From Mesoaciditoga lauensis cd-1655R = DSM 25116 (lineage in GTDB: Bacteria > Thermotogota > Thermotogae > Mesoaciditogales > Mesoaciditogaceae): 64,000 nt of DNA. Below are positions 23,164-58,165 of this stretch, piece by piece. Position numbers and translations under genes: made by a program. The notes beneath the pieces were generated by a model. It ran no database searches. It saw only the letters and a list, made by a program, of their open reading frames with translations, and was not told the origin of the DNA. The DNA lies in NCBI RefSeq assembly GCF_000745455.1, contig NZ_JQJI01000008.1:1-64000 (forward strand), given 5' to 3'. Numbering within the stretch: position 1 is the stretch's first letter; every line of letters begins with the position of its first letter.

Positions 23164-23340
23164 TTCGAAGTCCTGTCAGAACGAATTCGCTCCTTTTTTC
23201 CATCTTACAATTCAAAATATGAGGCACGCTCAGACACTCATCCGTGAGTGCTTCGCTTTCTCGGCACGTCCTGTGCCTCTCAACCTCATATTTTGAATTT
23301 CCAGATGGGGAGCTCATATGTTCTGACAAGTACTTCGAGG
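23164..23340 (-). repeat. Structured interspersed repeat, copy C (inverted)
   Basis: This is a full subtype 1 copy in minus orientation. Its ends are TCGAAGTCCTGTCAGAAC and GTTCTGACAAGTACTTCGAG, almost perfect inverted repeats. Inside are ATTCAAAATATGAGG/CCTCATATTTTGAAT arms and the GGCAC/GTGCC hairpin. Similarity to other copies continues beyond the right end to about 23395 (GGTGAGATT, then TTTTTGAAATACTTTGTA). Confidence 0.85.
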
Positions 23341-27898: not shown

Positions 27899-27998
27899 TT
27901 TTCAGCACCTTTTGAATAGTATGACGATCAAAATAATTATACAGCTCATCCTCTGTGGCAATGTTACAAAGCATTTCAAAAAGAAATTAAATCTCACC

Positions 27999-28176
27999 CT
28001 CGAAGCACTTGTCAGAACATATGAGCTCTCCATCTGAAGACTCATAAAACGAGGTTGGGAAACACACGGATGTGTTGAGAAAACGAAGCACTCATGGATG
28101 AGTGTCTGAGCGTGCCTCGTTTTTTGAGTCGTAAGATGGATAAAAGAGCGAATCCGTTCTGATAAATGCTTCGAAA
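27999..28176 (+). repeat. Structured interspersed repeat, copy D
   Basis: This is a full subtype 2 copy in plus orientation, with ends CGAAGCACTTGTCAGAAC and GTTCTGATAAATGCTTCG. The core has ACTCATAAAACGAGG/CCTCGTTTTTTGAGT arms and the AACAC/GTGTT hairpin. Homology with other copies extends left to about 27955 (TGTTACAAAGCATTTC). Together with inverted copy C it brackets the nuclease and helicase genes. Confidence 0.85.
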
Positions 28177-31964: not shown

Positions 31965-33524
31965 TTGAAGATCTTATGGCGTGTGTTAGTATCGCTAATT
32001 GTATTTGTAATGATATACTTCATTTCCATCTACATCTTCTCTCCAGGCGGGCAACCTCTCGAAAGATGGCAATTGTCTTTTGAAGGAAAGAAAGAATTTG
32101 TTCGCATGCCCTTTAAGGTAAAGACAAAACATCCAAAACTGCTGACGTTTACAACCACTTTTGAAGGAAAAGCGGGAGATACGCTCGTTTTTCCGCAAGT
32201 TGATGGTGGAGGGTTTGTTGTTTATTTAAACGGTAAAGAGATCTACCAAACCGGAAATCTCAAAAACGGCACCGCAAACATATGGAATTCCCTCTTTTCG
32301 ATTCCACTTTCGGGTTATTTAAAAAACGGGGAAAATGTGCTAAAAGTAAAAGTCTTCGCTCTTTACAACGGCGGCCTCGCCGCAGCGCCTTACATAGGAT
32401 GGCGTTCGCAAATAGAAAGAAAAATTTTAGCGACGAAGTTTTTGAAATCTCAAATCACTTTGGTTGTTATGGGAATGGCAATAGCCTTAGGTGTGATACT
32501 GACTTCGCTGGCATTTATGGACGATAGAAACAGAAGAAGGTATTTCGTCATAGGAATGGCAGCGTTTTTTATGTCTCTCTACTTAATCGATCTGCAGTAT
32601 TGGAACGTCAGCAACGTTTCAACCTACTTGCTTTTTAGAAAACTCTTCTTGATTTCTTTGTACATGTCCGTTTTTCTTTTCTTTGATGGAATGGAAAGAA
32701 ATTTATTTACGGAATTGAAGCTCTCAAAGCCATTCCTTGCCGTGATGATAGGCGTATCCGTTTGTGTTTTCATTCAGCCAACACCATTTTTGTTTAAAGA
32801 AGTACTGGGAGTGGGAACTTTATTTACCGTTGTATTGATCACCATTTCAGCGATAGAAGTTTACTGGCGGAAAAGGTATGAAATGATTTATCCATTGAGT
32901 TTGAGCATGGAAATCGCGATTTATGCCATTATCCTTGCTCTTAAGGGAAAACCAAACGCCTTTTTGATTCCATATGTGACAATGGCTCTAACTGCTGGTT
33001 TGGGAATAACGCTTGTTAAAGACTACGGCAGAACCTATTCCAACATGCTGATATCTCACAAGGCATCCTTGACAGATCCTCTGACAGGGGCGTTCAACAG
33101 GAATGTTTTAAAAGATTTAAGGCTTTCATCCCAAGATGTGATCGCCATGATAGACATGGATGCATTTAAAAAGCTTAACGACACCTTTGGCCATGAAAAG
33201 GGAGACGAAATGCTTAAGCTCTTTTGTAAGAAGAGTGAAGAGAATCTGAGAACTGGGGATTTCGTGATAAGATACGGGGGAGACGAATTCTTAATGATTT
33301 TGAGAGATTGCACGAGAAAGGATGCTGTTTCCATAGTTGAAAGGGTGAAAAAATCCTTCGAAAAAGAGGCCCTAAAATATAGGGTAACTTTTTCATACGG
33401 TGTCGAAAGGGTGGAAAAAAGCCTCGAGTGGGCTTTGTTAAGAGCTGATTCAAAAATGTACTCTATGAAAGAAAATCTTAAAAAATTCTCTAAGAAAAAG
33501 AGGTCACTCAAGGAATTTAGATAG
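31965..33524 (+). CDS. Membrane diguanylate cyclase with extracellular beta-sandwich and 7TM region
   Basis: This 519-residue protein makes cyclic di-GMP at the membrane. One N-terminal helix is followed by an exported domain of about 130 residues that looks like a carbohydrate-binding-type beta-sandwich (VYLNGKEIYQTGN, LKNGENVLKVKV). Seven hydrophobic segments follow (residues 155-350). The C-terminal GGDEF domain contains intact RYGGDEFL preceded by the RTGD inhibitory-site motif (RxxD five residues upstream), so product feedback inhibition is expected. The start is TTG 31965, seven bases after GAGGAG; GTG 31950 is also in frame. It converges on the DUF6062 gene with a 21-bp overlap. Confidence 0.88.
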   Translation: MKILWRVLVSLIVFVMIYFISIYIFSPGGQPLERWQLSFEGKKEFVRMPFKVKTKHPKLLTFTTTFEGKAGDTLVFPQVDGGGFVVYLNGKEIYQTGNLKNGTANIWNSLFSIPLSGYLKNGENVLKVKVFALYNGGLAAAPYIGWRSQIERKILATKFLKSQITLVVMGMAIALGVILTSLAFMDDRNRRRYFVIGMAAFFMSLYLIDLQYWNVSNVSTYLLFRKLFLISLYMSVFLFFDGMERNLFTELKLSKPFLAVMIGVSVCVFIQPTPFLFKEVLGVGTLFTVVLITISAIEVYWRKRYEMIYPLSLSMEIAIYAIILALKGKPNAFLIPYVTMALTAGLGITLVKDYGRTYSNMLISHKASLTDPLTGAFNRNVLKDLRLSSQDVIAMIDMDAFKKLNDTFGHEKGDEMLKLFCKKSEENLRTGDFVIRYGGDEFLMILRDCTRKDAVSIVERVKKSFEKEALKYRVTFSYGVERVEKSLEWALLRADSKMYSMKENLKKFSKKKRSLKEFR

Positions 33525-34154
33525 CATTTTCCACGCTTGTCCTTCTCTTGAGGTAAGTGGTTCGTGCGAAAATCTGTAATCGCTCTTTCTTATAAATTCT
33601 TCCATATCTTTTTTCAAGCGTGTCAATTTCTCTTTTTGAATTTTCATAAAGATGTTGAATTCAAATCCTTTTATCTCTCTAAGCATGTAAGTGTGCCGTA
33701 GGCATACCATAGATACAGATTGAGCGTATTTTTCCCTTCTATCGGGAAATGAGAAGAACTCGGAAAAAAGTTCAAGGTACCTCCGCTCTGCCTTTTTTTC
33801 AACTTCGCAAAGCTCACATCCATCGCCAAATTTGCCATCTATTTCGTCTAAAGCTTTCTCTATGTAATCAAAAAGATCGTGATAAAGAATGTTCACTCCG
33901 AGTATTCCAAGTTCCGGGTGCGCATTAAGGTGGTTTTCTACCATTTTCAAATGTTTGGGGCAAAAACCATGGCCTTTCACGAAGTTCGTGCGTTCAACCG
34001 GATCGTTCACATTCTCATAAAAGAGGGCATCTATGTAATCGTGAACGGCTTTATCCGTCAACGAGCAGATCGGGCATCCGATCACGTTCATCTTTTCGTC
34101 TATTTGACCTATCAAATACTCGCTTTTGTAATTTTGAGTTTTCTTACTGAACAT
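33504..34154 (-). CDS. DUF6062 family protein with duplicated CxxC-CxxH motif
   Basis: This 216-residue soluble protein is of the DUF6062 type (function unknown). It has two similar halves, each with CxxC then CxxH: CPIC near residue 27 with CPKH near 64, and CELC near 113 with CLRH near 152. Such a pattern could bind zinc or an iron-sulfur cluster. The gene starts only 27 bases after the last gene of the fluoride-riboswitch Ehr operon, on the same strand, and may be its seventh gene. That is notable because the complex itself lacks its usual metal ligands. Confidence 0.75.
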   Translation of the reverse strand: MFSKKTQNYKSEYLIGQIDEKMNVIGCPICSLTDKAVHDYIDALFYENVNDPVERTNFVKGHGFCPKHLKMVENHLNAHPELGILGVNILYHDLFDYIEKALDEIDGKFGDGCELCEVEKKAERRYLELFSEFFSFPDRREKYAQSVSMVCLRHTYMLREIKGFEFNIFMKIQKEKLTRLKKDMEEFIRKSDYRFSHEPLTSREGQAWKMLSKFLE

Positions 34155-34181: not shown

Positions 34182-36053
34182 CTATCTTACCATAAAGAAA
34201 ATAAGAACAAACACCGCGAGTATGTACAAAATGTAAGAGTAAACGTGACCGTTCATCAAGGTTCTTGAAAGCGCTAAAGATGTTGCCCTGGCACCCACCA
34301 AAATTCCAGTGTACATATCTTGAACGACATCCTTGACACGTACGTACCTTTTATTCTTCTCTTTGACCTCTTTTGTGGCGTAAACTTTTCTCAAGATGTA
34401 TTCAAGCGTGAAAGAATAAGCCGGTGCACTGAAATATTCCACTTCTCTTAGCACCTCTCCACCATTCCAGGCATCCACTCTTTTTACCTTTTTGCCCTTT
34501 GCAAGGTAAAATATCAGCGGGAATACTCCAAGCACTCCAAGCACCACCGCTAAGAACGTTGGCGACACAACACCAAATATGGGATGAGAAGAAAGTATGA
34601 GATAAGGCTTTGGAACTCCCAAAAGTCCAGAAAGAAATTCTTTGTATCCGAAGAATCTAACAACCAGTGGAGATAAAAATCCTGCCACTGCGATCACAAA
34701 AACCAAAATGATTTCCGCCAAATTCATGTTGAAATGCGGTATTTTTTTTGCACGTTTTCCGTGATCGTATCCTAAAGCGGTGTAACCAGCTAGCTTAACC
34801 ATTGAAAATGCCGCCATTCCCATGGCAAGAGCTAACAGAATACCAATGAAAGCCGCTGTAATTCTCGCCGTCATGGACGGTATCTTATACGATTGAAATA
34901 ACGTTTCAAGTGTCATCCATTCGGCAACGTATCCGATAAGTGGAGGAAAAACGGAAAAGGAGAGTGCGGATATCACTATGGAAAAGGCAGGAATTTTTCC
35001 CACAGCTTTCCAAACACCGCGCACGTTATCAATGCTTTCTTCATTTAAAGCTTCCTTCGCATGCCCAACAGCTAAAAATAGAAGCGTTTTGGTAATTACA
35101 TGGGAAAAAGTCAAGATTAAAGTGGTTAACATTGCAAATTCTCCCAACACGTTAATGTGAAAGGCAAAAGCTGTGATGGATAATCCTAACGTTGCTAAGA
35201 TTGTTCCGTCGTTTTCAACCGTAGAATAAGCAGGTAATATTTTCAAACCTTTTGCCGCCACGGCTTGCAAAGCACCCCAAAATGCAGAGGTGCCTCCAAA
35301 GACCATTGCCATTATCCCCCACCATTCAGGTCTACCGGATATGGATAGAGCTCTCGTCAATCCATAGACTCCCATTAATGTCAAAGGAGCACTTAAAAAT
35401 GCAGAAACATTTGACGGCGCTTTTGAATGGGCACCTATTAGCCAAGTGTGTAAAGGAAAAATGCCCATTTTAGTCATAAACGCTATTGTAGCCATAAGCA
35501 AAAAAATCCATGTTCCGTGCACTCCAACAAGTGAAAATGAGTGGTTCTTAAAGTAAAGTGATGCAAAAGCAATAAGCAGTGTGATCGTAGAGACTTCGCC
35601 AAATGCGAGAAATTCGAACGCTTCTTTGAAAGAATGTTTATGCTCCATTATCAGTAAATATGAAAAAATTGTGGCTATTTCCCACCCAATTATGAAAGTT
35701 ATCGCGTCTTTTGCTATTAAAACCATAAACATTCCTAAAAAAGCAGTGTTTAAAAAAATAGGCATTTTTTTGGAATAGTTTACGCCGTAATCTATCGAGT
35801 ACAAAGTGATAGCAAACCAGGATATAGATGCTATTAGCAGAAAAATGGCACTCGTGTGATCTATTCCTATACTCAATTCAAATCCATCAAAAATCTTGTA
35901 TATTCCAGACGAGAAAGGTGCGTTCAACCCTACAATTGACGTGATGAACGCCAAAACAGACGCACACGTTGCCATAAGATAGCTTGTCTTCTTCCAAAAT
36001 GTGATGAGTGCCCCAAACGCAAAAAACAAGAATGTAAAGTACATAAAGTTCAT
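34182..36053 (-). CDS. Antiporter-like subunit of Ehr complex (HyfB/NuoL family)
   Basis: This 623-residue polytopic membrane protein of the Mrp-antiporter/NuoL/HyfB family has about 14-16 hydrophobic segments. The proton-translocation core has IGWEIATIFSYLLIMEHKHS and MTKMGIFPLHTWLIGAHSKA, keeping the conserved Lys and His. A C-terminal soluble stretch (KRVDAWNGGEV, as in HyfB) is followed by a last helix. In the family it moves H+ or Na+ across the membrane, driven by the redox subunits. It is the last of six operon genes behind the fluoride riboswitch at 40766; its ATG is next to the stop of the NuoB-like gene. Confidence 0.88.
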   Translation of the reverse strand: MNFMYFTFLFFAFGALITFWKKTSYLMATCASVLAFITSIVGLNAPFSSGIYKIFDGFELSIGIDHTSAIFLLIASISWFAITLYSIDYGVNYSKKMPIFLNTAFLGMFMVLIAKDAITFIIGWEIATIFSYLLIMEHKHSFKEAFEFLAFGEVSTITLLIAFASLYFKNHSFSLVGVHGTWIFLLMATIAFMTKMGIFPLHTWLIGAHSKAPSNVSAFLSAPLTLMGVYGLTRALSISGRPEWWGIMAMVFGGTSAFWGALQAVAAKGLKILPAYSTVENDGTILATLGLSITAFAFHINVLGEFAMLTTLILTFSHVITKTLLFLAVGHAKEALNEESIDNVRGVWKAVGKIPAFSIVISALSFSVFPPLIGYVAEWMTLETLFQSYKIPSMTARITAAFIGILLALAMGMAAFSMVKLAGYTALGYDHGKRAKKIPHFNMNLAEIILVFVIAVAGFLSPLVVRFFGYKEFLSGLLGVPKPYLILSSHPIFGVVSPTFLAVVLGVLGVFPLIFYLAKGKKVKRVDAWNGGEVLREVEYFSAPAYSFTLEYILRKVYATKEVKEKNKRYVRVKDVVQDMYTGILVGARATSLALSRTLMNGHVYSYILYILAVFVLIFFMVR

Positions 36054-36054
36054 T

Positions 36055-36513
36055 TCAATCAGTCCTTCCAGCTATTTTCAAGAGTGTTCCTAGCATTTCG
36101 GATGCCGTTGGACAGCCATCCATAACTGCAACCACGTTTGGAAGATTCAATTTTTCCGGATCTGTTCCAGTTTCTTCGCATCCTTTTATCAGCATGATTC
36201 CAAACGGAGTCGGAAGCTGCCTGATGGTTTCTTTCAACGGCGCTATCATCTTTTTCGTGGGCCTTCCAAGGACGATCAAAAGGTCTGCGTGCCTTGGAGA
36301 AGCGGCAAAATAGATGCCAAATCGATGAATGTTGTAACGCGGCGTGTGTAACGCGTGAATTTCAAAGTTGAGTTGATTTGAATTTCCCACGTCTATCATG
36401 TAGAGATGTAGCGATCTTTTGAAAAGACCAAGTTTTTGGGCTTCGTGCTTCGATTCGTACTTTTCTTTTTCAGTCAGCATTTTTGACATGCCAACAACTG
36501 GCCACCATTTCAT
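36055..36513 (-). CDS. NuoB/HycG-like subunit lacking two N2-cluster cysteines (EhrS-type)
   Basis: This 152-residue homologue of the small subunit of group 4 hydrogenases and of NuoB normally holds the N2 [4Fe-4S] cluster. The fold is clear from LHALHTPRYN-type and FAASPRHADLLIVLGRPTKK segments. The usual CxGC pair, expected at residues 46-49, reads NQLN. Two later cysteines remain (KGCEETG and MDGCPT). A normal cluster is therefore unlikely. The start is ATG 36513, eight bases after AGGAGG; an upstream open frame reaches 36555 inside the neighbouring gene. It is translated right after the NuoD-like partner. Confidence 0.82.
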   Translation of the reverse strand: MKWWPVVGMSKMLTEKEKYESKHEAQKLGLFKRSLHLYMIDVGNSNQLNFEIHALHTPRYNIHRFGIYFAASPRHADLLIVLGRPTKKMIAPLKETIRQLPTPFGIMLIKGCEETGTDPEKLNLPNVVAVMDGCPTASEMLGTLLKIAGRTD

Positions 36514-36535
36514 TTTCATATCCTCCTCATCTTCC

Positions 36536-37774
36536 TCATCTCGCCGCGTCCGCAAAATTCACGCCGTACGATTCAACCGCAAATGGAAAGTCGGTGAAGA
36601 TGTTAGAACGCATCGAATGAGCAGTGGCAGCGAATCCAAAAACGGACGGCGTGCTAACGTACAGATTTTTTATCTTGCCGTTAGTTATGTCAAGGCGATA
36701 AACCACACTCCCGCTAGGTGACTCACAAGCTCCAAGTCCTTCACCATCACGGATTTCAAAAACCGTCTTGTTTTCCTGATCCTCAAATCCACTGAGCATT
36801 TTGGTTATGAGCTTTGCGCTTTGCATGATTTCGTGGGCCCTCACTTCCATTCTTGAAAGCGAATCGCCTTCTTCATCTGTAACGGGAATGAAATTGGAAT
36901 AAACTTCTTCATTCACCCTCAAATCTTCTTCAACGTTGCAAGCTCTCAAAGCGGGACCGGTAAGCCCAATCTTTTGGGCACTCTCGGCATCGAGAATTGC
37001 CGTTGAATGTAACCTGTCTATGTAATTTCTACTCGTTAGAGAATGCTCAAATAATTTTTCGAATTCGAATGAAACCTTTTTGATCCTTTGAGATACTTCT
37101 TTCAGCGCTTGTTTGTCTGGAACAATACTCACTCCACCTATTTTTACAAAGTCCCGCAAGAAGCGTGAATTCGAGAAAAGCCCGTTTATCCGCAAAAGAT
37201 CTTCAAAGAGGCCCTGAAGATGAGAAGCTAAAACAAGCTGAGCGGCTGCCGAAGCCAACCTGGAAATCACATACATGTGGTTGTACATTCTTTCCAATTC
37301 CAAAGCGACAGTCCGCAAAACTTCTATATCGAACGGAAGTTTTATTTTGCACGCGTTTTCTACAGCACGTGCATATGCCAAAGCATGGGAAACACCAAAG
37401 TTCCCACAGATAGATTGTGCCATTTTCAAGCCTTCTTCAACGCTTTTTCCGTTCATGCCAACATCTATTTCTCGTCGTTTGTAAGACGTGTCGATTTTGA
37501 CCTGCAATATCCTTTCACCATACGTGAAGAGATGATAAACGCCGGCTTCACCAACGCCAGATGTGACAGGACCATACCTGAAATCGAAAACACCTTCGCC
37601 CGTGACATCTTCTTCACTTTCAAGAGGGTCTTTTACGATCGTATCTCTGTTTCGTATGAGTTTGGCATTTTCAAAATCGTCCGCGTTTCCATCTTCAACA
37701 AACACCTTTCCGTTTTCTTGAACGATCAAAAATTCTCTTCCATCTTTTTCATATATGCCAAGCAATTTTTTCAT
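36536..37774 (-). CDS. HycE/NuoCD-like large subunit lacking [NiFe] cysteines (EhrL-type)
   Basis: This 412-residue homologue of the group 4 hydrogenase large subunit has a short NuoC-like N-terminus and a NuoD-like body with ALELERMYNHMYVISRL. In true hydrogenases, nickel is bound by RxCGxC near the N-terminus and DPCxxC near the C-terminus. Here these read SICGNFGVSH (one cysteine left) and DFPFAVES (none). It cannot hold a normal [NiFe] site. It matches energy-converting hydrogenase-related (Ehr) proteins. Its ATG overlaps the stop of the upstream antiporter-like gene in ATGA. Confidence 0.85.
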   Translation of the reverse strand: MKKLLGIYEKDGREFLIVQENGKVFVEDGNADDFENAKLIRNRDTIVKDPLESEEDVTGEGVFDFRYGPVTSGVGEAGVYHLFTYGERILQVKIDTSYKRREIDVGMNGKSVEEGLKMAQSICGNFGVSHALAYARAVENACKIKLPFDIEVLRTVALELERMYNHMYVISRLASAAAQLVLASHLQGLFEDLLRINGLFSNSRFLRDFVKIGGVSIVPDKQALKEVSQRIKKVSFEFEKLFEHSLTSRNYIDRLHSTAILDAESAQKIGLTGPALRACNVEEDLRVNEEVYSNFIPVTDEEGDSLSRMEVRAHEIMQSAKLITKMLSGFEDQENKTVFEIRDGEGLGACESPSGSVVYRLDITNGKIKNLYVSTPSVFGFAATAHSMRSNIFTDFPFAVESYGVNFADAAR

Positions 37775-39156
37775 TTTATCATCCCCACAGAAAGCAGCTG
37801 GTTAATTTGAGGTACGAAGAAGATCACGAGAAAAGCCAATGAGGTGTTCACGATTGGAACGATGGTACCGACCCTCTTTCTCTCTGTTACAACAGTGTCT
37901 GTTGGTTTGGAAAAGACCATGGAACCAACTTTGTAGTTGATGCTGATAAAAGCCACCAACAAGAAAGAAATAACCAATAACGCGTAAAAGAGTGGGAAGT
38001 ACTTGAGAATTCCGTATATTATAAGCAATTCACCGATAAACGTTCCAAATGGAGGTGTACCTGTAACGGCTAACGCCGAAAAGAAAAGCGTGTAACCGGT
38101 AAATGGCATGCGTTGAGATACGCCTTTGACGTCTTCTATTTTCTTGCTTTTGTATCTCGCCAATATGTTTCCACTAAGGTAAAAGACGGATGATTTTGCA
38201 AACGCGTGTGAGAGAGCCAAAACAACTGCTCCTATAAAAGCGTACTTCCCTAACGATAAGCCTATAAGCATCATTCCCATGTTTTCCATCGTTGAATACG
38301 CGAAGAGCCTTTTGTAATTTCTTTGAACGATCATCAAAGTGGCCGCAGTTGCAACGGTAAGCAGGCCAAGCCAGAAGGCAAACTCCTTAACCATGCCCAC
38401 ATTCACTATTTGCATGATCCTCGCAACAGCGTATAAGGCTACGGCAAGTAGTATTCCAGAAAACGCCGCGCTAACCGGTGCCGGCGCTTTTCCATGCACG
38501 TCTGGCAGCCACGTGTGCATCGGGAAAATTCCCCCTTTGGTGCCATATCCTATTACGGCCATCATGGTGCCGAGAATCAATATCTTGTTCGTTTGGACGC
38601 CTTGCATCATTTGCTGAACGTTCAAAGTGTCTGTTACGCTGTAGATGAATATGTTCGCAAGCAAAGATATGATCAATCCAACGGAAACGATTATTATGTA
38701 CCTCCACGTCGCTTCAATGGAAGTCTCCGTGTTTTCAGTTGCAACCAACAGAGCACTCGTAACCGTTGTCGCTTCTATGCCAACCCAAATAAGGCCTAAA
38801 TCGTTTACAGAAACGGTAAAGAGCATGCTAAACGCGAATAAATTCATCAAGAAGTAATAAAAGTGCTTTTCGAATGACGGATTGTCTATGTATTTCATGT
38901 AAGTCGTGGAAAACGTTACCGTGCTTGCATATATCATGCTTACCATGATAAGCATTATCTTGGAAAGACCATCTATGTAAAGATAATGGTTTGTGTAAGA
39001 CGGTAAAAACACCATGATAAACGCCACCGCAACCGTGGAAAAGGCGGCTATGATTGAGACAACTTCCTCAAAATAAGTTTTCTTTACAAGACATAACAAC
39101 GAAGCAGCCAAAGTAAAGAACATCGGCAAAATGTAAATATAATTCATCGCTCTCAT
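37771..39156 (-). CDS. Antiporter-like subunit of Ehr complex (HyfF/HyfD family)
   Basis: This 461-residue membrane protein of the NuoM/HyfF type has about 14 hydrophobic segments. The core keeps GYGTKGGIFPMHTWLPDVHG and LVATENTETSIEATWRYIII, with conserved Lys, His and Glu. The start is ATG 39156, overlapping the stop of the HyfE-like gene, or ATG 39147, which is better spaced from AGAGG. It is a predicted H+ or Na+ translocating subunit and the third gene of the operon. Confidence 0.88.
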   Translation of the reverse strand: MRAMNYIYILPMFFTLAASLLCLVKKTYFEEVVSIIAAFSTVAVAFIMVFLPSYTNHYLYIDGLSKIMLIMVSMIYASTVTFSTTYMKYIDNPSFEKHFYYFLMNLFAFSMLFTVSVNDLGLIWVGIEATTVTSALLVATENTETSIEATWRYIIIVSVGLIISLLANIFIYSVTDTLNVQQMMQGVQTNKILILGTMMAVIGYGTKGGIFPMHTWLPDVHGKAPAPVSAAFSGILLAVALYAVARIMQIVNVGMVKEFAFWLGLLTVATAATLMIVQRNYKRLFAYSTMENMGMMLIGLSLGKYAFIGAVVLALSHAFAKSSVFYLSGNILARYKSKKIEDVKGVSQRMPFTGYTLFFSALAVTGTPPFGTFIGELLIIYGILKYFPLFYALLVISFLLVAFISINYKVGSMVFSKPTDTVVTERKRVGTIVPIVNTSLAFLVIFFVPQINQLLSVGMIK

Positions 39157-39788
39157 CCTCTCAGCTCATCGAACTCACCTACATCAGCAGATGAATCCTT
39201 CATCATTCTCACAACGACACCCGCTATGGCTATTATTCCTATAAGATCAAGCACGATACCTGCTTCAACTATAAAAGGCAAGCCCGGGAAAAGGTAACCC
39301 TCGAAAAGGAACAAGGCATTCTCCATCGTCATGTAGCCTATCAATTGAATGAAGGCGTTCCTTCGTGAAATTATGAGAAACGCACCTTGAAGAAGTAAAG
39401 CCATTGGAATCGAACCTTCAACCAAATGAATCGAATTGTAGAAGGTGACCCTGTAAAGAACGTAAGCAAAAACCACGATAAGCAGCGATATCACTATTGA
39501 CATGGCGGTGCTGACAACAGGTTTTATCTCCCTTTCTCTCCAATGATCTCTTACGATCCTTCGTTTCATGTACCAAGGAATGAAAAAGCCTCTCACAAAC
39601 GCGCTGATCAGGGATAAGGCTATAACGTAAGGGGAGTTTTGAACAATTCCCAGATAAAACAGGAAAAGTGCGATTATGTAGGAAGAAATGGAAAAAGTTG
39701 TGATTATCTTTTTTGTGTATATCTCCCATTGCATGAAAAGTACCATGAGAATCTCGAAAAAACCGACAAGTGCAAATGTTTCTCTCAT
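39153..39788 (-). CDS. HyfE-like membrane subunit of Ehr complex
   Basis: This 211-residue protein has about six hydrophobic segments and resembles HyfE (a NuoK-like core with extra helices). The C-terminal half, IQLIGYMTMENALFLFEGYL and VEAGIVLDLIGIIAIAGVVV, matches the NuoK-like region with its conserved Glu residues. It lies one base after the NuoH-like gene and overlaps the next by four bases. Confidence 0.82.
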   Translation of the reverse strand: MRETFALVGFFEILMVLFMQWEIYTKKIITTFSISSYIIALFLFYLGIVQNSPYVIALSLISAFVRGFFIPWYMKRRIVRDHWREREIKPVVSTAMSIVISLLIVVFAYVLYRVTFYNSIHLVEGSIPMALLLQGAFLIISRRNAFIQLIGYMTMENALFLFEGYLFPGLPFIVEAGIVLDLIGIIAIAGVVVRMMKDSSADVGEFDELRG

Positions 39789-39789
39789 C

Positions 39790-40740
39790 TCAAACCCTCC
39801 CCACGGTCGTGTAAAATGCCAGGAAACTCAAGAAAGCCAGAGAAAAGGCAAAGGCGAGATAATCGAAATTCTTGAACAGCCTGAACTTCGATATGCTCTC
39901 TTCGAAGAGTGCGATGCCTATCACAAGGCCCAACAATTTCAAGAAATGAACACCTGAATAAATGAAGACGGACAACAAGTTCAATTTCATTGGCACGAAG
40001 AAAGGCATGGTGTAAACGTTCAAAAAGACGCTCATGAGCAAGAATTTTTTCACGTATCCGCCCCATTTTTCGAAAGCCAGATCCATTCCGGAATACTCCA
40101 TGCTCATCCCTTGATCGATCATTCCAAGTTCCGCTGTTGAGTGTCTTTCTATTGGAAGGCGTCCAAGCTCCACTATGAGCACCATGAAGAAAGCGGCAGC
40201 CACAAACCAATGAGTCAACGAAAGGTACCACTTAGACGACGATTGCAGCACGTTGTTTATGACGTAAGGATTGTTCGTGCCAGAGATAACTCCAAGCATT
40301 ATGAATATCAAAACGGTTATGGGTTCTGCTAAAGCTCCCATGCTGGCCGCCCTTGACAAGCCCAAATGAGAATAATTGCTTCTGCTATCCAACGCTGCCA
40401 GTTTTTTAACAAGCGCCGCCGCGCCGAATATCAACCCACCGCCTATGAAGTCCACCGTAGGTCCAAATTGAAGTGGAAAAGCGGTTATGATTGGCAGTAC
40501 AAGCGTAAGCAAACTGTACATTGCAAAGCTCACGTAAGGCGCTCTGTGAAAGATAGGAGAAGAATGATTTGGGACTATTATCTCTTTTCTGAAAAGCTTG
40601 TAAAGATCGTAGTAAGGCTGAAAGATACTGGGGCCCTTTTTCGATTCGATTCTTTCTTCAATTTTGGATAAAATGCCAAATACAAGTGGAGATAAAAGTA
40701 GAACATATAGAAGCTGTACAACGCTTAAAAATACAAGCAT
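39790..40740 (-). CDS. NuoH/HyfC-like membrane subunit of Ehr complex
   Basis: This 316-residue membrane protein belongs to the NuoH/HyfC family, which joins the peripheral and membrane arms. It has eight hydrophobic segments and the conserved loops SKKGPSIFQPYYDLYKLFRK and ELGRLPIERHSTAELGMIDQ; the second differs from the usual PVDNPATHLELT form but keeps the Glu. Its ATG follows a T run and the GGAGG that also forms the terminator stem of the fluoride riboswitch. It is the first gene of the operon. Confidence 0.88.
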   Translation of the reverse strand: MLVFLSVVQLLYVLLLSPLVFGILSKIEERIESKKGPSIFQPYYDLYKLFRKEIIVPNHSSPIFHRAPYVSFAMYSLLTLVLPIITAFPLQFGPTVDFIGGGLIFGAAALVKKLAALDSRSNYSHLGLSRAASMGALAEPITVLIFIMLGVISGTNNPYVINNVLQSSSKWYLSLTHWFVAAAFFMVLIVELGRLPIERHSTAELGMIDQGMSMEYSGMDLAFEKWGGYVKKFLLMSVFLNVYTMPFFVPMKLNLLSVFIYSGVHFLKLLGLVIGIALFEESISKFRLFKNFDYLAFAFSLAFLSFLAFYTTVGRV

Positions 40741-40774
40741 AAAAAAACCTCCTATCCAGATTTTGGGTAGGAGT
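40741..40774 (-). terminator. Riboswitch expression platform: terminator overlapping ribosome-binding site
   Basis: CTCCTA (40773-40768) pairs with TAGGAG near 40752-40747, with extra CC/GG pairing, and is followed by seven T before the ATG. The 5' side shares bases with the aptamer pseudoknot strand ACTCC, so fluoride binding should block the hairpin. The 3' side is the ribosome-binding site GGAGG, so translation as well as transcription may be controlled. Confidence 0.75.
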
Positions 40775-40816
40775 CATCGGCCTTCGAAGGCTTTACGGCG
40801 AACTCCACCGCCGGTG
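40766..40816 (-). ncRNA. Fluoride riboswitch (crcB motif) of the Ehr operon
   Basis: On the minus strand the aptamer reads GGCGGTGGAGTTCGCC, then GTAAA, GCCTTCGAAGGC and CGATGACTCCTACC. These match the crcB motif: P1 (GGCG/CGCC), the loop-to-3' pseudoknot GGAGT (40806-40802) with ACTCC (40774-40770), and a hairpin GCC/GGC. The conserved GATGACTCCTAC end is present. This RNA family binds fluoride. It lies immediately before the NuoH-like gene. A TATAAT box at 40833-40828 fits a start near 40821. Confidence 0.88.
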
Positions 40817-41042
40817 TTTGTAAAGGATTATACGGAAAGCAAGTTAATTAAAGATTATTAGATATTAAACATTTGTTGTATGCGAATGAATTTTAGCTTC
40901 CCAAGAAAGCACTGCCAACAAAAATATATGGTTCTCATCAGTTTAGTGCGGGTAAAACATGCCGATTCTCTATTCTGTCTGTTGCTGTAGTTCTGAATAA
41001 AATCATTCCAAAATACCCTGTTGTCAAGTGAAAGAACAAGCA

Positions 41043-41223
41043 TCCTCGAAGTACTTGTCAGAACATATGAGCTCTCCATCTGGAAATTCACAAATATGAG
41101 GTTGAGAGGCACAGGACGTGCCGAGAAAGCGAAGCACTCACGGACGAGTGTCTGAGCGTGCCTCATATTTTGAATTGTAAGAGGGAAAAAAGAGCGAATC
41201 CGTTCTGACAAGTACTTCGAGAG
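41043..41223 (+). repeat. Structured interspersed repeat, copy E (best preserved)
   Basis: This copy shows the element most clearly. Ends CTCGAAGTACTTGTCAGAAC and GTTCTGACAAGTACTTCGAG are perfect 20-base inverted repeats. Nested inside are CTCCATCT/AAGAGGGA-like arms, ATATGAGG/CCTCATAT arms, the GGCAC-AGGAC-GTGCC hairpin and the CACTC/GAGTG hairpin, then GCGAATCC before the right end. No open frame is conserved across copies. It lies between the Ehr operon leader and the next gene, and 41224-41292 holds nothing else recognisable. Confidence 0.88.
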
Positions 41224-41292
41224 TGAGGATTTAATTCTTGAAATTTCTGTCAGAACTTCAAAACACACATTTTCCAGATGACGAAAATGCAT

Positions 41293-42264
41293 TCATAATT
41301 CTTCTATGACGAATTTCAAATTATCGCTCATTTCCTTTGCCAGCTTTGCAACATCTTCCCACGTGTAAATTTTTGCTGGAAAAAAGAAATTCCATATCAT
41401 CTTGAAAAACTCAATCACGCCTCCGAAAAAATTTTCATGAAGAATTTTAACTTGATTGACTTGTAAAACTGAGGTATTGGGTAATCCGGAAATTTGTGAT
41501 ATGGATTTAATGCTTTTGACGATTTCAGAAATATCTGACCACGAACGCTCTATTTCGCCGCTAAGGATATCAAGATGAGATAAAGTTTTCACGTCTTCAA
41601 GAAAGTTCCTTATGTCTTCTATTTCACTAAGTGCCATGTAAGCTTGATAATATACGGGTACACTAAGGTGAATTATTTTGAAAAAGTACATGATGTTTTC
41701 TTCCAATTTCTTGCTTTTGAGGGGAAGCTGGGAGACGGTGTTTTTAAAATCAATCCATACCTTTATTCTTTCTTGGAGTATTTCAATTTGAGATCTGAGA
41801 GACTTTTGAACATCTGGATCACTGGAGTTTTTTAGTTTTTCTTTCAACTCCGCAAGTTGCCTCTCCAGTAAACGAACTTGATTTTCCGCTTGCGTGCTCT
41901 CTTTTGACGCTTGCTGAATGAGCTTTTCAAAGCCTTCCCTTATCGATGTGCTGTTTTCGTCTATTTCTTTGTACTGCTGGTAAAGGGTTTGGAAGACATC
42001 TTTTGCCTCTTCAATTATCGTAGAAGTTGAAATGGGGTTTTCCCCGTTTCTTTTCTCATTTATGGCTTTTTTTAACCTTTTGATCCCTTCAAGGCCTTTT
42101 TCAAGTCTTGCGTAAACGAAGCCGGCTCTGTAAGTTACTATGGAACTTGCCGTTTTTGTGGTTTGGAGTGCCAACATTTTCATGCTTATCTGTTGAGAAA
42201 AGGCTATACCTATAGTTAGAAAAAGCATTAAAAGCGTTGCAAACAACAAAGATCTTTTTTGCAC
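41293..42264 (-). CDS. Exported coiled-coil protein of unknown function
   Basis: This 323-residue protein has a signal peptide (residues 1-23, KRSLLFATLLMLFLTIGIAFS) followed by an almost wholly helical sequence. A strong coiled coil covers about residues 110-170 (QAENQVRLLERQLAELKEKL). A hydrophobic patch FFKMIWNFFFPAKIY near residue 285 could contact the membrane. The start is GTG 42264 behind AAGGAGGG. It stands alone between the two fluoride-riboswitch units. I do not recognise a family. Confidence 0.75.
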   Translation of the reverse strand: MQKRSLLFATLLMLFLTIGIAFSQQISMKMLALQTTKTASSIVTYRAGFVYARLEKGLEGIKRLKKAINEKRNGENPISTSTIIEEAKDVFQTLYQQYKEIDENSTSIREGFEKLIQQASKESTQAENQVRLLERQLAELKEKLKNSSDPDVQKSLRSQIEILQERIKVWIDFKNTVSQLPLKSKKLEENIMYFFKIIHLSVPVYYQAYMALSEIEDIRNFLEDVKTLSHLDILSGEIERSWSDISEIVKSIKSISQISGLPNTSVLQVNQVKILHENFFGGVIEFFKMIWNFFFPAKIYTWEDVAKLAKEMSDNLKFVIEEL

Positions 42265-42689
42265 TTAAAACCCTCCTTCCTTTTTCCATGGAAGAACGGA
42301 ATTCATTTCGAGTTTTTCTTGGTAAGAGACGCACATGAATTCTGGAGAGTTAAACGGGCAATTGAAGCACAAATTTAAAAGATGAAATGGTGGTTTTCGA
42401 GGAGTACTTCTATTTACAATTATAGATCAGCATGTAAAGGTTGTACAGTCCTCTCGCTATTAGTAGGTAACAAAGATAGAACCAACTTTCAATTTTCTTG
42501 GTAGTGGCATAGGTAAGTGTTTTTTGAATAATGCCATTCTTTCGTTATGAATGCCGCTTTAAGGGCGATCAATGCAATTAAAATGAAGCCTAACCAGGGC
42601 TGATTCACTCTTTTATTCGGAGCCAAAAACTCCAATTCAATGAGCTCATGTGCAAAAGCTAGCAGGGAAATGACATAAGAGTTCTCGTG
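42265..42689. other. Intergenic region without recognisable genes
   Basis: This stretch lies between the exported coiled-coil gene (minus strand) and the promoter of the MutS-like pair. It must hold the promoter of the former. I saw no repeat, RNA or credible reading frame. Confidence 0.5.
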
Positions 42690-42718
42690 TTGAATCCGCA
42701 TTTCAAAAGTGGTAAAAT
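42690..42718 (+). promoter_or_regulatory. Promoter of the MutS-like operon
   Basis: TTGAAT (42690-42695) and TAAAAT (42713-42718) are 17 bases apart. Transcription would start at about 42725, exactly where the fluoride aptamer begins. Confidence 0.75.
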
Positions 42719-42723
42719 GAGAG

Positions 42724-42771
42724 AAGGAGATGAAGCTCTCCTTTAATGCTGATAGCAGCTGATGGCTTCTG
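42724..42771 (+). ncRNA. Fluoride riboswitch (crcB motif) of the MutS-like operon
   Basis: The aptamer reads GGAGATGAAGCTCTCC, TTTAA, TGCTGATAGCA, GCTGATGGCTTCT. P1 is GGAGA/TCTCC (42726-42730 with 42737-42741). The pseudoknot GAAGC (42732-42736) pairs with GCTTC (42765-42769). The inner hairpin is TGCT/AGCA with a three-base loop. The GCTGATGGC...CT end is as in the Thermotoga fluoride riboswitch. Every element of the crcB fold is present. Confidence 0.9.
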
Positions 42772-42792
42772 AAAAGAATGCCATCATTTTTT
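42760..42792 (+). terminator. Riboswitch-controlled intrinsic terminator
   Basis: TGATGGCTTCT (42760-42770) pairs with AGAATGCCATCA (one bulged T), loop GAAA, followed by TTTTTT. The 5' half contains the pseudoknot strand GCTTC of the aptamer, so ligand binding and terminator formation exclude each other. This is the standard fluoride ON switch. Confidence 0.9.
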
Positions 42793-42821
42793 ATGCGGTG
42801 GAAGAAAAAGGAGGCTTGACT

Positions 42822-44378
42822 TTGGCCTTTGAGAGCATTTTGTTTAAAACATTTAAAACCTCCCAGACAAACGGCAAATTGGAAATGCCAGACTTCTTTC
42901 ATGATTTAAATATAGATCAGATCGTAAACTCGCTTGTGGGATTTAAGGGAGAATACAACTTGAGGGATTTTTTTTACATCATTCCAACAGATGTTGAAGA
43001 GATAAAATATCGCCAAGAGATCATGAAAGATCTGGAAAACAAGAACGTTTTCTCCGTAATAGATGAATTTGCCATGAAGATGCGCAAAAGCCGCCTTTAC
43101 AAATCTTACAGTGATAAACTGACTTTGAATTATCAAAAGGAAAGATGGTTTGTCGATGCGGTAGATGTTTACGTGAAAGCCGTAAAGGAATTGCTTGAAA
43201 GACTGGAAAATGTTGATTTGAAATCTCAAGGGCTTATCCAATTCAGAGAATATTTAGAATCTTATGTGAACTCAAACAAATTCATGGAACTCTTTTCACA
43301 AACGCAAGAAGTCCTTTCAAAGCTTTCCCGCATCAAATACACGCTTTTGATAAAAGAAAACAAAGTTAAAGTTCAGAAATACAATGGTGAAAAAGACTAC
43401 GCGTCTGAAGTCCTGAAAACGTTTGAAAGATTTAAGCAAGGAGCCGTTAAAGATTACACAGTTGAATTCGATGAATCTATGGATATGAACGGTGTTGAAG
43501 AGAAAGTGCTGGACTTGGTGGCAAAGCTGTATGAGGAAGAATTTTCGGATTTGGAAAGATTTTACGGCGTAAATGCCTCTTACATCGATAAAACAATTTC
43601 AAGGTTTGATAGAGAAATTCAGTTCTACGTCACCTATTTAGAATACATAGAGCCATTGAAAAAAGGTGGACTAGATTTTTGTTATCCAGAGTTTACCACT
43701 TCAAAAGAGATATACGCAAAGGATGCTTTTGATTTGGCGCTGGCTTTCAAATTACACAGAGAGAGTTTAAGAGTGGTGAGCAACGATTTTTACTTGAATG
43801 ATCCTGAAAGGATCATAGTCGTTACTGGTCCAAATCAAGGCGGAAAAACGACATTCGCACGCATGTTTGGGCAAGTGCATTATCTTGCAAAGATGGGTTA
43901 CCCCATACCTGCAAGTAAAGCGCGACTCTTTTTGTTCGACAACATATTTACCCATTTTGAAAAAGAGGAAAAGATAGGGAATCTCCGCGGAAAATTGGAA
44001 GACGATTTGATAAGAATAAGAAATATCTTGGATAAGGTCTCTAAAGATAGCATCGTAATAATGAACGAGATCTTTTCTTCCACAACTCTTGAAGACGCGA
44101 AATTTTTAGCCAAAAAAGTCATGGAAGAGATAATGAAAAAGGATTCCATCGCCCTATTGGTCACCTTTATGTACGAGTTATCTGAATTGAATGAAAAAAC
44201 GGTTAGTATGGTGAGCACCGTTTCTGAAACAAATCCAGAGATGAGAACGTACAAGATTTTAAGAAGACCATCGGACGGACTTTCATATGCCGTTTCATTG
44301 GCAAAAAAATACGGCCTCACTTACGAGCAGTTGAAAAAGAGGGTGAAAGATGAAAGTTTTTCTGATGCACGAAGATAA
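42822..44378 (+). CDS. MutS-related ATPase protein 1 (no mismatch-recognition domain)
   Basis: This 518-residue protein has MutS core/lever helices and a C-terminal MutS ATPase domain. Walker A is VTGPNQGGKTT near residue 350, the Walker B region IVIMNEIFSSTT. There is no N-terminal mismatch-recognition domain with its FxE motif, so it is not classical MutS; such MutS-like proteins are known downstream of fluoride riboswitches, with unknown roles. The start is TTG 42822, seven bases after AAGGAGG; the open frame starting at 42762 would begin inside the riboswitch. It overlaps the next gene by 29 bases. Confidence 0.85.
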   Translation: MAFESILFKTFKTSQTNGKLEMPDFFHDLNIDQIVNSLVGFKGEYNLRDFFYIIPTDVEEIKYRQEIMKDLENKNVFSVIDEFAMKMRKSRLYKSYSDKLTLNYQKERWFVDAVDVYVKAVKELLERLENVDLKSQGLIQFREYLESYVNSNKFMELFSQTQEVLSKLSRIKYTLLIKENKVKVQKYNGEKDYASEVLKTFERFKQGAVKDYTVEFDESMDMNGVEEKVLDLVAKLYEEEFSDLERFYGVNASYIDKTISRFDREIQFYVTYLEYIEPLKKGGLDFCYPEFTTSKEIYAKDAFDLALAFKLHRESLRVVSNDFYLNDPERIIVVTGPNQGGKTTFARMFGQVHYLAKMGYPIPASKARLFLFDNIFTHFEKEEKIGNLRGKLEDDLIRIRNILDKVSKDSIVIMNEIFSSTTLEDAKFLAKKVMEEIMKKDSIALLVTFMYELSELNEKTVSMVSTVSETNPEMRTYKILRRPSDGLSYAVSLAKKYGLTYEQLKKRVKDESFSDARR

Positions 44379-45840
44379 GGATTTTGATTTACAAAGGAAA
44401 ATGCCTCAATGGAAAGAAGTCGTTCAAGATCTAGAGTTAAACGTTCTTTTTGATGCAATGGCAAAAGAAGATGATTTCTTTAGGGAAGTTTCAGAAGCAG
44501 CCATCCTTTCTCCGTTATCAGATGTTAAAAGCATCTTGTACCGACAGGAAATTTTAAAAGATTGTTTGGCCAATCCTTCTTTAATAAAGGAAATGTACGA
44601 TATATCTTTGGAGTCTTTTGATGTTGAGAAAAACACCTTCTTCGGTTTTTTCAGCAGGTATCCTATTGGCATGCTTGACAGTTCTGTAAAAGCCATGACA
44701 ATGCTCGTTAAGACGCTTAAAAAACTCCGAAATATCGCAGATGAAAAATCTGGAAAATTCCATTCTAAAGGCTTCAAAAGATTCTTTAACATGGTAAAGA
44801 ATGAACTGAGTGATGAGTATTTTGAAGAAGTTGAGAAGCATCTGGAAACTTTGGAATTCAAAAATGGCATGTTGATAAGCGCTGACCTTGGAATGGGAAA
44901 CAAAGGAGTAAATTACACCTTACGTAAGCCAAACGAAGAGAAAAAACGATGGATTTCTAAGATCTTTTCAAAGAGAGAGGAAGAATTCACCTTCCGCATA
45001 GCTGAAAGAGATCAAAATGGTGCAAAAGCTTTATCTAATCTAAAAGAAAGAGGAATAAATTCCGTTGCAAATGCGCTTACTCAATCCGTCGATCACATTC
45101 TTAGTTTTTTCACCGTCTTGAAAACTGAACTTGCTTTTTATTTGGCCGCGATGAACCTTTATGACTCTTTAGAAAGGTTGGGGGAGCCTTTATCTTTTCC
45201 GGTACCACATGATATTGGAACCTCGATACATGAATTCAAATGTTTGTACGATCCTTCTCTGGCGCTAACCCTAAACAAGAAAGTTATTGGAAATGACCTA
45301 AAGGCAAATGGTAAAAATCTCTTTGTGATAACAGGCGCCAACAGGGGAGGAAAATCCACGTTTTTAAGAAGCATCGGAATTGCACAGTTGATGATGCAGA
45401 GCGGTATTTTTGCTCCCGCAGAACATTTCTCTTCAAGCATATCGAAAAAGATCTTCACCCATTACAAAAGGAAAGAAGATGAAAAGATGGAGAGCGGAAA
45501 ATTCGATGAGGAGTTGAGGAGAATGAATAAAATAGCCACCGATCTCGTGCCGCATTCAATGGTTCTATTCAACGAATCGTTTTCCGCAACGAATGAAATA
45601 GAAGGCTCTGAAATAGCAAAGGAAGTTGTTTTGGCCCTTAAAGAGAAAGACGTTGAAGTGTTTTTCGTCACTCACATGTACGAATTCGCTCATTCCATGT
45701 ATGAAAAGCATTTTGATGATGCTATCTTCTTGGTAGCCGAACGTTTAGAAGACGGCAACCGCACTTTCAAAATAAAAGAAGGAAAGCCTTTGCAAACAAG
45801 CTTTGGTATCGATCTGTACGAGCGTTTATTCGAAAAATGA
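44350..45840 (+). CDS. MutS-related ATPase protein 2
   Basis: This 496-residue paralogue of the preceding protein has the same plan: helical core, then a MutS-type ATPase with VITGANRGGKSTFLRS near residue 330 and MVLFNESFSATNEIEGSE. It also lacks the mismatch-recognition domain. The start is ATG 44350, seven bases after GAGGG, inside the end of gene 1, so the two are coupled and may form a heterodimer, as MutS-family ATPases work as dimers (inference). It is controlled by the same fluoride riboswitch. Confidence 0.85.
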   Translation: MKVFLMHEDKDFDLQRKMPQWKEVVQDLELNVLFDAMAKEDDFFREVSEAAILSPLSDVKSILYRQEILKDCLANPSLIKEMYDISLESFDVEKNTFFGFFSRYPIGMLDSSVKAMTMLVKTLKKLRNIADEKSGKFHSKGFKRFFNMVKNELSDEYFEEVEKHLETLEFKNGMLISADLGMGNKGVNYTLRKPNEEKKRWISKIFSKREEEFTFRIAERDQNGAKALSNLKERGINSVANALTQSVDHILSFFTVLKTELAFYLAAMNLYDSLERLGEPLSFPVPHDIGTSIHEFKCLYDPSLALTLNKKVIGNDLKANGKNLFVITGANRGGKSTFLRSIGIAQLMMQSGIFAPAEHFSSSISKKIFTHYKRKEDEKMESGKFDEELRRMNKIATDLVPHSMVLFNESFSATNEIEGSEIAKEVVLALKEKDVEVFFVTHMYEFAHSMYEKHFDDAIFLVAERLEDGNRTFKIKEGKPLQTSFGIDLYERLFEK

Positions 45841-45957: not shown

Positions 45958-46012
45958 TTCTTCGAAGTCCTGTCAGAACGAATTCGCTCTGACAAGTACT
46001 TTGAGGGGAGAT
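45958..46012 (-). repeat. Interspersed repeat, copy F (core deleted, inverted)
   Basis: TCGAAGTCCTGTCAGAAC and GAATTCGCT run directly into CTGACAAGTACTTTGAGG. These are both ends of the element in minus orientation with the internal 130 or so bases missing. Similarity extends left (CCGCTTTCCAAGCGG hairpin, also near copy G) and right (GGGAGATTTAATTTC). The rest of 45841-46138 holds no gene. Confidence 0.75.
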
Positions 46013-46138
46013 TTAATTTCTTTTTGTTTGGCTTTGCGCTTTGTAGTTGCTTTTCACACATGTTTAGTCTCATTTTAGTTTATTCGATTATTTGCAATGC
46101 TTAAGGCATTAACAACACTGACACACAGGATAAAAATT

Positions 46139-55277: not shown

Positions 55278-55507
55278 TTCTATCCCTTCTCTTTAGAATG
55301 TGTATACGCAAAGAATATCACGCTTACACGTCTAAAGTAAATTCAAAACGATTATCAACCGAGCTCACACAGACGCATAAAAGCATTGACATGCTTTCAA
55401 TTAAATGTTAATATTTTATGAAAGCTCGATGTGTTTTCCACATTTCGCTCATTCCTCAACCTGTGCGTCGATGTTACAAAGTATTTCAAAAAAGGATTAA
55501 ATTTCAC

Positions 55508-55686
55508 CCTCGAAGTACTTGTCAGAACATATGAACTCTCCATCTGAAGATTCAAAATATGAGGTTGAGAGGCACAGGACGTGCCGAGAAAGCGAAGCAC
55601 TCATGGACGAGTGTCTGAGCGTGCCTCATATTTTGAATTAGGAAGACGGAAAGAAGAGCGAATCCGTTCTGACAGGACTTCGAAAA
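55508..55686 (+). repeat. Structured interspersed repeat, copy G
   Basis: This is a full subtype 1 copy in plus orientation. Ends are CGAAGTACTTGTCAGAAC and GTTCTGACAGGACTTCG; arms ATTCAAAATATGAGG/CCTCATATTTTGAAT are perfect; the hairpin is GGCAC-AGGAC-GTGCC. Similarity continues left to about 55455 (GCGTCGATGTTACAAAG). It precedes the second Kelch gene. Confidence 0.88.
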
Positions 55687-57967: not shown

Positions 57968-58165
57968 AAAAGAAGGCACTTTCAGACACTCGTCTGTGAG
58001 TGCTTCGCTTTTTGGCACATCTTGTGTCTCTTCACCTCATATTTAGGTTCTGAATCAATTTCAGGGTGGCAGAAAGGTCAAAGACTCTAGTCCAATGAGA
58101 ACTCATATATTCTAACAAATACTTTGAGAGTGAGATTTAACCTCTTGTTGAAATTTTTTGTAACA
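57968..58165 (-). repeat. Interspersed repeat, copy H (degenerate, inverted)
   Basis: AGGCAC, CAGACACTCGTCTGTGAGTG, CTTCGCTTTTTGGCACATCT and CCTCATATT match the core in minus orientation. A divergent middle and the end TTCTAACAAATACTTTGAGA followed by GTGAGATTTAA match the outer end. The outer similarity continues as TTTTTTGTAACATCGATG. It starts one base after the Kelch 2 stop. Confidence 0.65.

Follow-up and report, generated by a model that had tools for sequence, protein, structure and literature searches.

Divergent fluoride riboswitches head a hydrogenase-like operon lacking redox ligands and a MutS-like gene pair in Mesoaciditoga lauensis

A stretch of 64,000 nucleotides from Mesoaciditoga lauensis cd-1655R = DSM 25116 (contig NZ_JQJI01000008.1, positions 1 to 64,000; hereafter the window) carries two fluoride riboswitches (crcB motif, Rfam family RF01734). 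One heads an operon for an Ehr complex, a relative of hydrogenase-4 and complex I, and the other a pair of MutS-like genes, MutS-A and MutS-B. Taken as a whole, the locus is probably best explained as a fluoride-induced stress island which combines an Mrp-like Ehr with an enzyme-protecting MutS-A/B. An original prediction, made from the letters of the window, had placed one crcB RNA before each of these two units and had read them as a dedicated fluoride-response locus devoid of a known exporter; both statements agree with our results, as does the expectation that the genes stay together in relatives, while the inclusion of a coiled-coil gene must be withdrawn. Genomes, contigs and loci are cited below by our own labels (G, C and L), and positions without a label are those of the window.

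The elements of the two leaders are as follows.

40761-40821, minus strand: fluoride riboswitch aptamer, Ehr operon leader (RF01734, 44.4 bits, E = 5e-9)
40741-40773, minus strand: Ehr expression platform, hairpin CUCCUACCC-AAAAUCU-GGAUAGGAG (fold -12.7 kcal/mol, z -1.3)
42690-42718, plus strand: promoter-like TTGAAT-17-TAAAAT with extended -10 (9/12 consensus match; kept in L034; by itself no proof of function)
42717-42778, plus strand: fluoride riboswitch aptamer, leader of the MutS-like pair (RF01734, 40.7 bits, E = 7.8e-8)
42761-42792, plus strand: MutS-A terminator hairpin GAUGGCUUCU-GAAA-AGAA-U-GCCAUC with U-run (fold -15.1 kcal/mol, z -2.1; kept in L034)

Both aptamers exceed the curated Rfam gathering threshold of 34 bits and lie 1.9 kb apart on opposite strands, in divergent orientation, as had been claimed; a covariance-model scan of the window returned no further RF01734 match above that threshold. 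When 32 aptamers from Thermotogota are aligned, columns 14 and 47, which we take to form the long-range A6-U38 pair, are G-C in 17 and A-T in 15 with no mismatches; every row shows standard pairing at all five pseudoknot positions, with compensatory changes. The Ehr aptamer of the window is of the G-C (G6-C38) type with its pseudoknot intact. The MutS aptamer belongs to the A-U type, and its pseudoknot, GAAGC:GCUUC as against GGAGU:ACUCC, shows a compensatory change which preserves pairing. Judged by their sequences, the two are genuine fluoride riboswitch aptamers.

Downstream, the Ehr hairpin (CUCCUACCC...GGAUAGGAGG) absorbs the 3' pseudoknot strand of its aptamer together with the Shine-Dalgarno sequence AGGAGG, and is followed by U7 and the AUG at 40740. 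This short hairpin is weak by energy alone; the same architecture is found in relatives (L034, L044, L049, L055, L042). The terminator upstream of MutS-A (GAUGGCUUCU...AGAAUGCCAUC and its U-run) likewise absorbs the aptamer's 3' strand, and the promoter-like element sits just 5' of this second aptamer. Because each aptamer overlaps a competing hairpin, both riboswitches should be ON switches under fluoride: binding would relieve the terminator for MutS-A/B, and either a terminator or a Shine-Dalgarno mask for Ehr. In aptamer, long-range pairs, overlapping terminator and ON logic they resemble known members of RF01734 and differ in nothing essential, the altered pseudoknot of the MutS-class aptamers aside.

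The Ehr operon runs downward from 40740, its genes in the order listed here and followed by a DUF6062 gene, to which we return below.

39790-40740, minus strand: NuoH/HycD-like membrane subunit (PF00146; best PDB match formate hydrogenlyase HycD, 7z0s_D, E = 8e-29)
39153-39788, minus strand: HyfE-like membrane subunit (NCBIfam hydrogenase 4 membrane subunit, E = 4e-12)
37771-39156, minus strand: HyfF/antiporter-like subunit (PF00361; PDB matches MbhH, E = 2e-30, and MrpD, E = 9e-24)
36536-37774, minus strand: NuoD-like subunit without NiFe ligands (CGxC replaced by CGNF, C-terminal motif by NFADAA)
36055-36555, minus strand: NuoB-like subunit without [4Fe-4S] ligands (start probably near 36510)
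34182-36053, minus strand: HyfB/HycC-like antiporter subunit (PF00361; PDB match HycC, 7z0s_C, E = 6e-29)

This hydrogenase-4/complex-I-like set, with antiporter-like subunits and without NiFe-coordinating cysteines, is that of the Ehr complexes, which are defined as NiFe-less relatives and thought to perform redox chemistry. The features of formate hydrogenlyase and the group-4 NiFe hydrogenases, namely NiFe ligands in the large subunit and [4Fe-4S] ligands in NuoB/HycG, are missing. The NuoB-like subunit reads VGNSNxLNF where HycG and MbhJ have CGxCNGC, and no column in an alignment of 31 NuoB sequences contains 20% or more Cys. The NuoD-like subunit retains one Cys of CGxC and has lost the C-terminal pair, and no ferredoxin-like gene was seen in the Ehr operons listed. 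Since the protein scan used a cysteine-less NuoB motif, which could favour cysteine-less forms, a search from the RNA side was run as an independent test; none of the five NuoB sequences it supplied keeps the cluster motif, one having a lone Cys.

The membrane subunits present a different picture. Residues E128, K207, H317, K321 and E376 of HyfF are identical in all 31 sequences, the charges of NuoH and HyfB are likewise conserved in the same alignment set, and by homology with MbhH, NuoM and MrpD the conserved HyfF charges are ion-path residues. As far as its predicted subunits tell, Ehr keeps in full the membrane arm of a complex I/formate hydrogenlyase relative, without any known electron path, because the NuoB cluster cysteines, the NuoD NiFe ligands and a ferredoxin-like subunit are all absent. 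From the loss of this path we read Ehr as an Mrp-like ion-translocating complex rather than a fermentation enzyme, a proposal for which our confidence is evenly poised: hydrogen fluoride would enter the cell and dissociate, and Ehr would then restore cytoplasmic pH and cation balance. We count in its favour that the fluoride switch of other Thermotogota controls a Na+/H+ exchanger instead. Ehr would share with the Mrp Na+/H+ antiporter the antiporter-like membrane subunits, invariant charges (a likeness confined to channel residues) and the lack of redox chemistry, but it retains NuoH-, NuoB- and NuoD-like subunits.

The riboswitch-Ehr module recurs in several phyla. RF01734 matches were found in 48 of 103 Thermotogota genomes. 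Where downstream DNA was read, they head Ehr, MutS-A/B, Na+/H+ exchangers, enolase or a MoxR unit, which consists of MoxR, DUF58 and a membrane protein weakly matching DUF4129 and stands either alone or after DUF6062. Cysteine-less Ehr is present in nine of the ten Mesoaciditogaceae genomes, with a riboswitch in front wherever this could be seen (8/8; the G015 locus is cut by a contig end). The NuoB alignment, scanned against named genomes, gave 33 loci, which are distributed over Mesoaciditogaceae, Spirochaetales, Bacteroidetes, Desulfurellales/Hippea and Campylobacterota. Outside Thermotogota, a covariance-model match lies next to NuoH in 17 of 21 evaluable loci, 11 of them above the gathering score and the rest weaker (L082 is marginal, E = 0.03); the remaining four have a variant aptamer recognized by eye (L073, L097) or a degenerate one (L080, L090). 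From the RNA side, 20 of 30 riboswitch loci fetched from 25 genomes of another class head Ehr, and several of the others head a protein of ~490-580 amino acids, dynamin-like GTPases in all three cases scanned. The divergent Ehr/MutS pair is shared by three further Mesoaciditogaceae genomes and recurs in Bacteroidetes, where a metagenome-assembled genome (MAG; L098) repeats the layout of the window, with a riboswitch at 2431-2500 (minus) before MutS-A/B and another at 3373-3443 (plus) before Ehr. Bacteroidetes islands also carry CrcB-DUF190, pyrophosphatase, DUF6062, a dynamin-like GTPase and a MutS-A-MutS-B-enolase row.

CrcB is absent from the whole M. lauensis genome and from all ten genomes of its family, as well as from 13 of the 23 other Ehr genomes. 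The single CLC of M. lauensis has GREGP and GHGVP in place of the CLC-F signatures GREGT/V (quoted in PMC11139923) and GNNLI/GMGLI, and the CLCs read in the family genomes have GREGP, also without the CLC-F signature. Across Thermotogota, riboswitch and CrcB are anti-correlated, CrcB occurring in 10 of 48 genomes with a riboswitch and 33 of 55 without (Fisher p = 6e-5, kinship ignored). A general role for Ehr as a simple substitute for CrcB was nonetheless rejected, as Bacteroidetes with Ehr also have CrcB.

The second riboswitch precedes two overlapping genes.

42822-44378, plus strand: MutS-A, MutS core and ATPase domain, Walker B ..MNE.. (PF00488)
44350-45840, plus strand: MutS-B, paralogous partner, Walker B ..FNE.. 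(PF00488)

MutS-A most likely starts at the TTG at 42822, behind a perfect AAAAAGGAGG. Residue conservation among relatives begins there, so that the ATG at 42762, which falls inside the aptamer and is followed by no conservation before 42822, was rejected as an artefact of open-reading-frame calling. MutS-A occurs in 17 of the 103 Thermotogota genomes, with a riboswitch in front in 15 of the 16 with visible upstream DNA. In G040 enolase lies between riboswitch and MutS-A, in G086 no riboswitch was seen, and in G013 the gene is at a contig edge. As a separate observation, the MutS-A frame is broken in G014 (one TAG; L048 8273-9835) and in G040 (several stops; L064 11124-12532), MutS-B being open.

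The two proteins (~500 amino acids) are 25% identical to each other. Pfam finds in them only MutS_V (PF00488), with neither mismatch-recognition (I) nor connector (II) domain, and no C-terminal Smr domain as in MutS2. Their Walker B is Asn-Glu in every MutS-A/B with a readable motif, as opposed to the Asp-Glu of mismatch-repair MutS, which is also what KamC, MutS1 and MutS2 carry within the phylum. Against the KamC (lysine 5,6-aminomutase reactivase) model NF052383, with a cut-off of 300 bits, they score 62.5 and 77.1 bits, and a separate gene of the same genome (C64) passes with 301.8 bits. They thus resemble KamC and MutS2 in having a MutS ATPase without a mismatch domain, and differ as a putatively heterodimeric pair with Walker-B Asn, far under the KamC cut-off and lacking Smr and KOW. 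Structural comparison added little: the MutS-A model has a mean predicted local distance difference test (pLDDT) score of 59, its ATPase half being too poor for use, and in VIA-align MutS core residues were matched by its N-terminal part alone, a weak result (Z ≤9.8, as against 9.3 for unrelated helical proteins). A protein tree of MutS-A/B and MutS2 was not used for placement, as the motif filter had removed KamC and long branches converge in it. A literature search on KamC found nothing useful.

Enolase is a classic fluoride target, and ATPases of the MutS type can be trapped by fluoride as ADP-Mg-fluoride. The same Asp to Asn change in E. coli MutS (D693N, PDB 3k0s) reportedly lowers Mg2+ affinity; by analogy, the Walker-B Asn may be a hardening against Mg-fluoride trapping. 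MutS-A/B and enolase share one gene run in Thermotogota (G040), in Bacteroidetes (L073, L170 and L171, three loci in two genomes) and in G127, where a single riboswitch (L224) is followed by a dynamin-like protein, MutS-A, MutS-B and enolase; this dynamin-like assignment follows from a GQFKRGKSTL P-loop region shared with the domain-scanned GTPases. We tentatively propose that MutS-A/B is a heterodimeric ATPase, hardened by its Walker-B Asn, which would protect or reactivate fluoride-poisoned enzymes, with enolase as the prime candidate client because such gene runs occur in at least three lineages.

Several observations weigh against these readings of Ehr and MutS-A/B. The soluble NuoB and NuoD subunits are conserved although redox-dead, and so have a role for which a plain antiporter would have no use; C123 of NuoD is retained in 32 of 33 sequences, and the Bacteroidetes with Ehr carry CrcB as well. 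Proximity to enolase may merely reflect the clustering of fluoride genes, enolase does not adjoin the MutS-A/B pair of the window, MutS-A of G040 has a broken frame, and the MutS-A model is poor. In addition, the genomes are for the most part drafts and include many MAGs.

Other functions of Ehr have to be considered. It might itself export fluoride, or couple fluoride extrusion to an ion gradient, in place of CrcB and CLC-F. The distribution of CrcB and the GREGP signature of the CLCs in these lineages would suit such a role, as would the tendency of the riboswitch to control an exporter (PMC11139923). We nevertheless consider it unlikely, since CrcB-DUF190 adjoins Ehr in Bacteroidetes islands, the membrane subunits have homologues that transport H+ or Na+ and not anions, and the channel residues that are conserved belong to cation/proton paths. 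It is yet less probable that Ehr remains a formate hydrogenlyase-like redox enzyme which, through an unrecognised cofactor or partner, shifts fermentation under fluoride stress: published work calls these genes formate hydrogen lyase and the soluble NuoB/NuoD folds are retained, but among the sequences read, which come from several phyla, all have lost the NiFe and [4Fe-4S] ligands, and a ferredoxin-like gene is missing from the operon.

For MutS-A/B, repair of DNA damaged under fluoride stress was proposed in 2010 (Weinberg 2010) and is compatible with the MutS ATPase domain, yet the pair has no detectable mismatch-binding or connector domain, both subunits have lost the Walker-B Asp, and the operon partner is enolase rather than a repair gene; we judge this very improbable. 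Nor do we put much weight on an action upon ribosomes, after the manner of Bacillus MutS2, rescuing translation stalled by fluoride. The best Foldseek matches of MutS-A/B include MutS2 on collided ribosomes and its size is similar to the MutS2 core, against which stand the lack of Smr and KOW domains, PF00488 alone being found, and of ribosome genes nearby. A bolder version of our preferred reading, in which a redox-free complex I-like machine serves as a fluoride-defence transporter, possibly a fluoride extruder, in lineages without CrcB and CLC-F, while the MutS-like pair reactivates poisoned enolase, is speculative and unlikely.

The link of these genes to fluoride has a published precedent which the original prediction missed: Weinberg 2010 (PMC2864571) listed crcB RNAs as preceding mutS and formate hydrogen lyase genes and read mutS as DNA repair, and a 2024 review (PMC11139923) reads the riboswitch-associated 'formate hydrogen lyase' as a fermentation enzyme. 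In Enterobacter cloacae, the FRM operon is ppaC-uspA-eno-gpmA-crcB-orf5249, and experiments in Enterobacter have tested operons with enolase, pyrophosphatase and UspA (PMC5533749). Literature searches pairing the fluoride riboswitch with hydrogenase, and with MutS, found no paper usefully joining the former two and none joining the latter two. As in the known gene sets, our loci have mutS, 'formate hydrogen lyase', enolase, pyrophosphatase and CrcB next to fluoride riboswitches or under their control. They differ in that the genome has no known exporter, the formate hydrogenlyase-like operon is redox-dead, MutS-A/B and enolase share one operon at some loci, and DUF6062, MoxR-DUF58 and dynamin-like units are added. 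The known NiFe-less relatives of group-4 hydrogenases are alike in lacking NiFe ligands and having antiporter-like subunits; fluoride-associated Ehr has in addition no NuoB cluster ligands or ferredoxin-like subunit, and is riboswitch-controlled. The loss of NuoB cluster ligands as a rule in fluoride-controlled Ehr appears to be new, as do the Walker-B Asn pair, the divergent arrangement in another phylum, the MutS-enolase operons and the DUF6062, MoxR-DUF58 and dynamin-like units.

Because the redox-dead Ehr/MutS-like module recurs across phyla, the fluoride genes called 'formate hydrogenlyase' and 'DNA repair' look misnamed; the sequences examined contradict both the fermentation (PMC11139923) and the repair (PMC2864571) readings. 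If our reading were true, a complex I relative would work without electrons in fluoride defence and a MutS-fold ATPase would protect a metabolic enzyme. Two questions become testable: what fluoride genes other than exporters do, and how bacteria with fluoride switches and no known exporter survive.

The island is also wider than the original prediction supposed, which overlooked the gene ending the Ehr operon and the MoxR/DUF58 unit; DUF6062, MoxR-DUF58 and the dynamin-like GTPase would be further members of the regulon alongside Ehr and MutS-A/B.

33504-34154, minus strand: DUF6062 protein, last gene of the Ehr operon (PF19538, E = 4e-15; two CxxC...CxxH modules)
L033 5607-9436: unit under a third riboswitch, comprising MoxR and weak matches to DUF58 and, in a membrane protein, to DUF4129

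That third fluoride riboswitch of the M. lauensis genome, on contig C22, is weaker (27.8 bits) and brings the riboswitch-headed units of the genome to three, Ehr, MutS-A/B and MoxR. In many relatives DUF6062 is under a fluoride riboswitch of its own. Its predicted structure is all-helical and confident (pLDDT 88.6), without a notable PDB match by Foldseek or VIA-align, and our literature search found no paper naming it. PHO4 and YhhN were rejected as riboswitch-controlled genes in L006 and L015, where the genes actually downstream are DUF6062-MoxR. Dynamin-like GTPases were observed behind or beside fluoride riboswitches in L217, L219, L220, L224 (13837-15564) and L073 (2-1519), several of them near DUF6062 or MutS-A/B.

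An exported coiled-coil gene (41293-42264) does lie between the two riboswitches, and its position had suggested a new fluoride gene. We exclude it from the island because it is missing at the same spot in a close relative: the gap between the riboswitches is ~1.8 kb in the window and ~0.2 kb in G012, of the same genus, with flanks 92-95% identical. No other relative's riboswitch pair encloses the gene, and a paralogue (47%) lies on contig C28 of the same genome (G000:C28 3318-4292, L169). The gap in the window consists of this gene and a dispersed intergenic repeat of ~180 bp (41041-41220), which has inverted ends (AAGTACTTGTCAGAAC / TTCTGACAAGTACTT) and resembles a miniature inverted-repeat transposable element (MITE). 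Further copies or parts of the repeat lie at 23165-23340, 27995-28174, 55505-55683, 251-402, 57974-58044 and 45975-46022.

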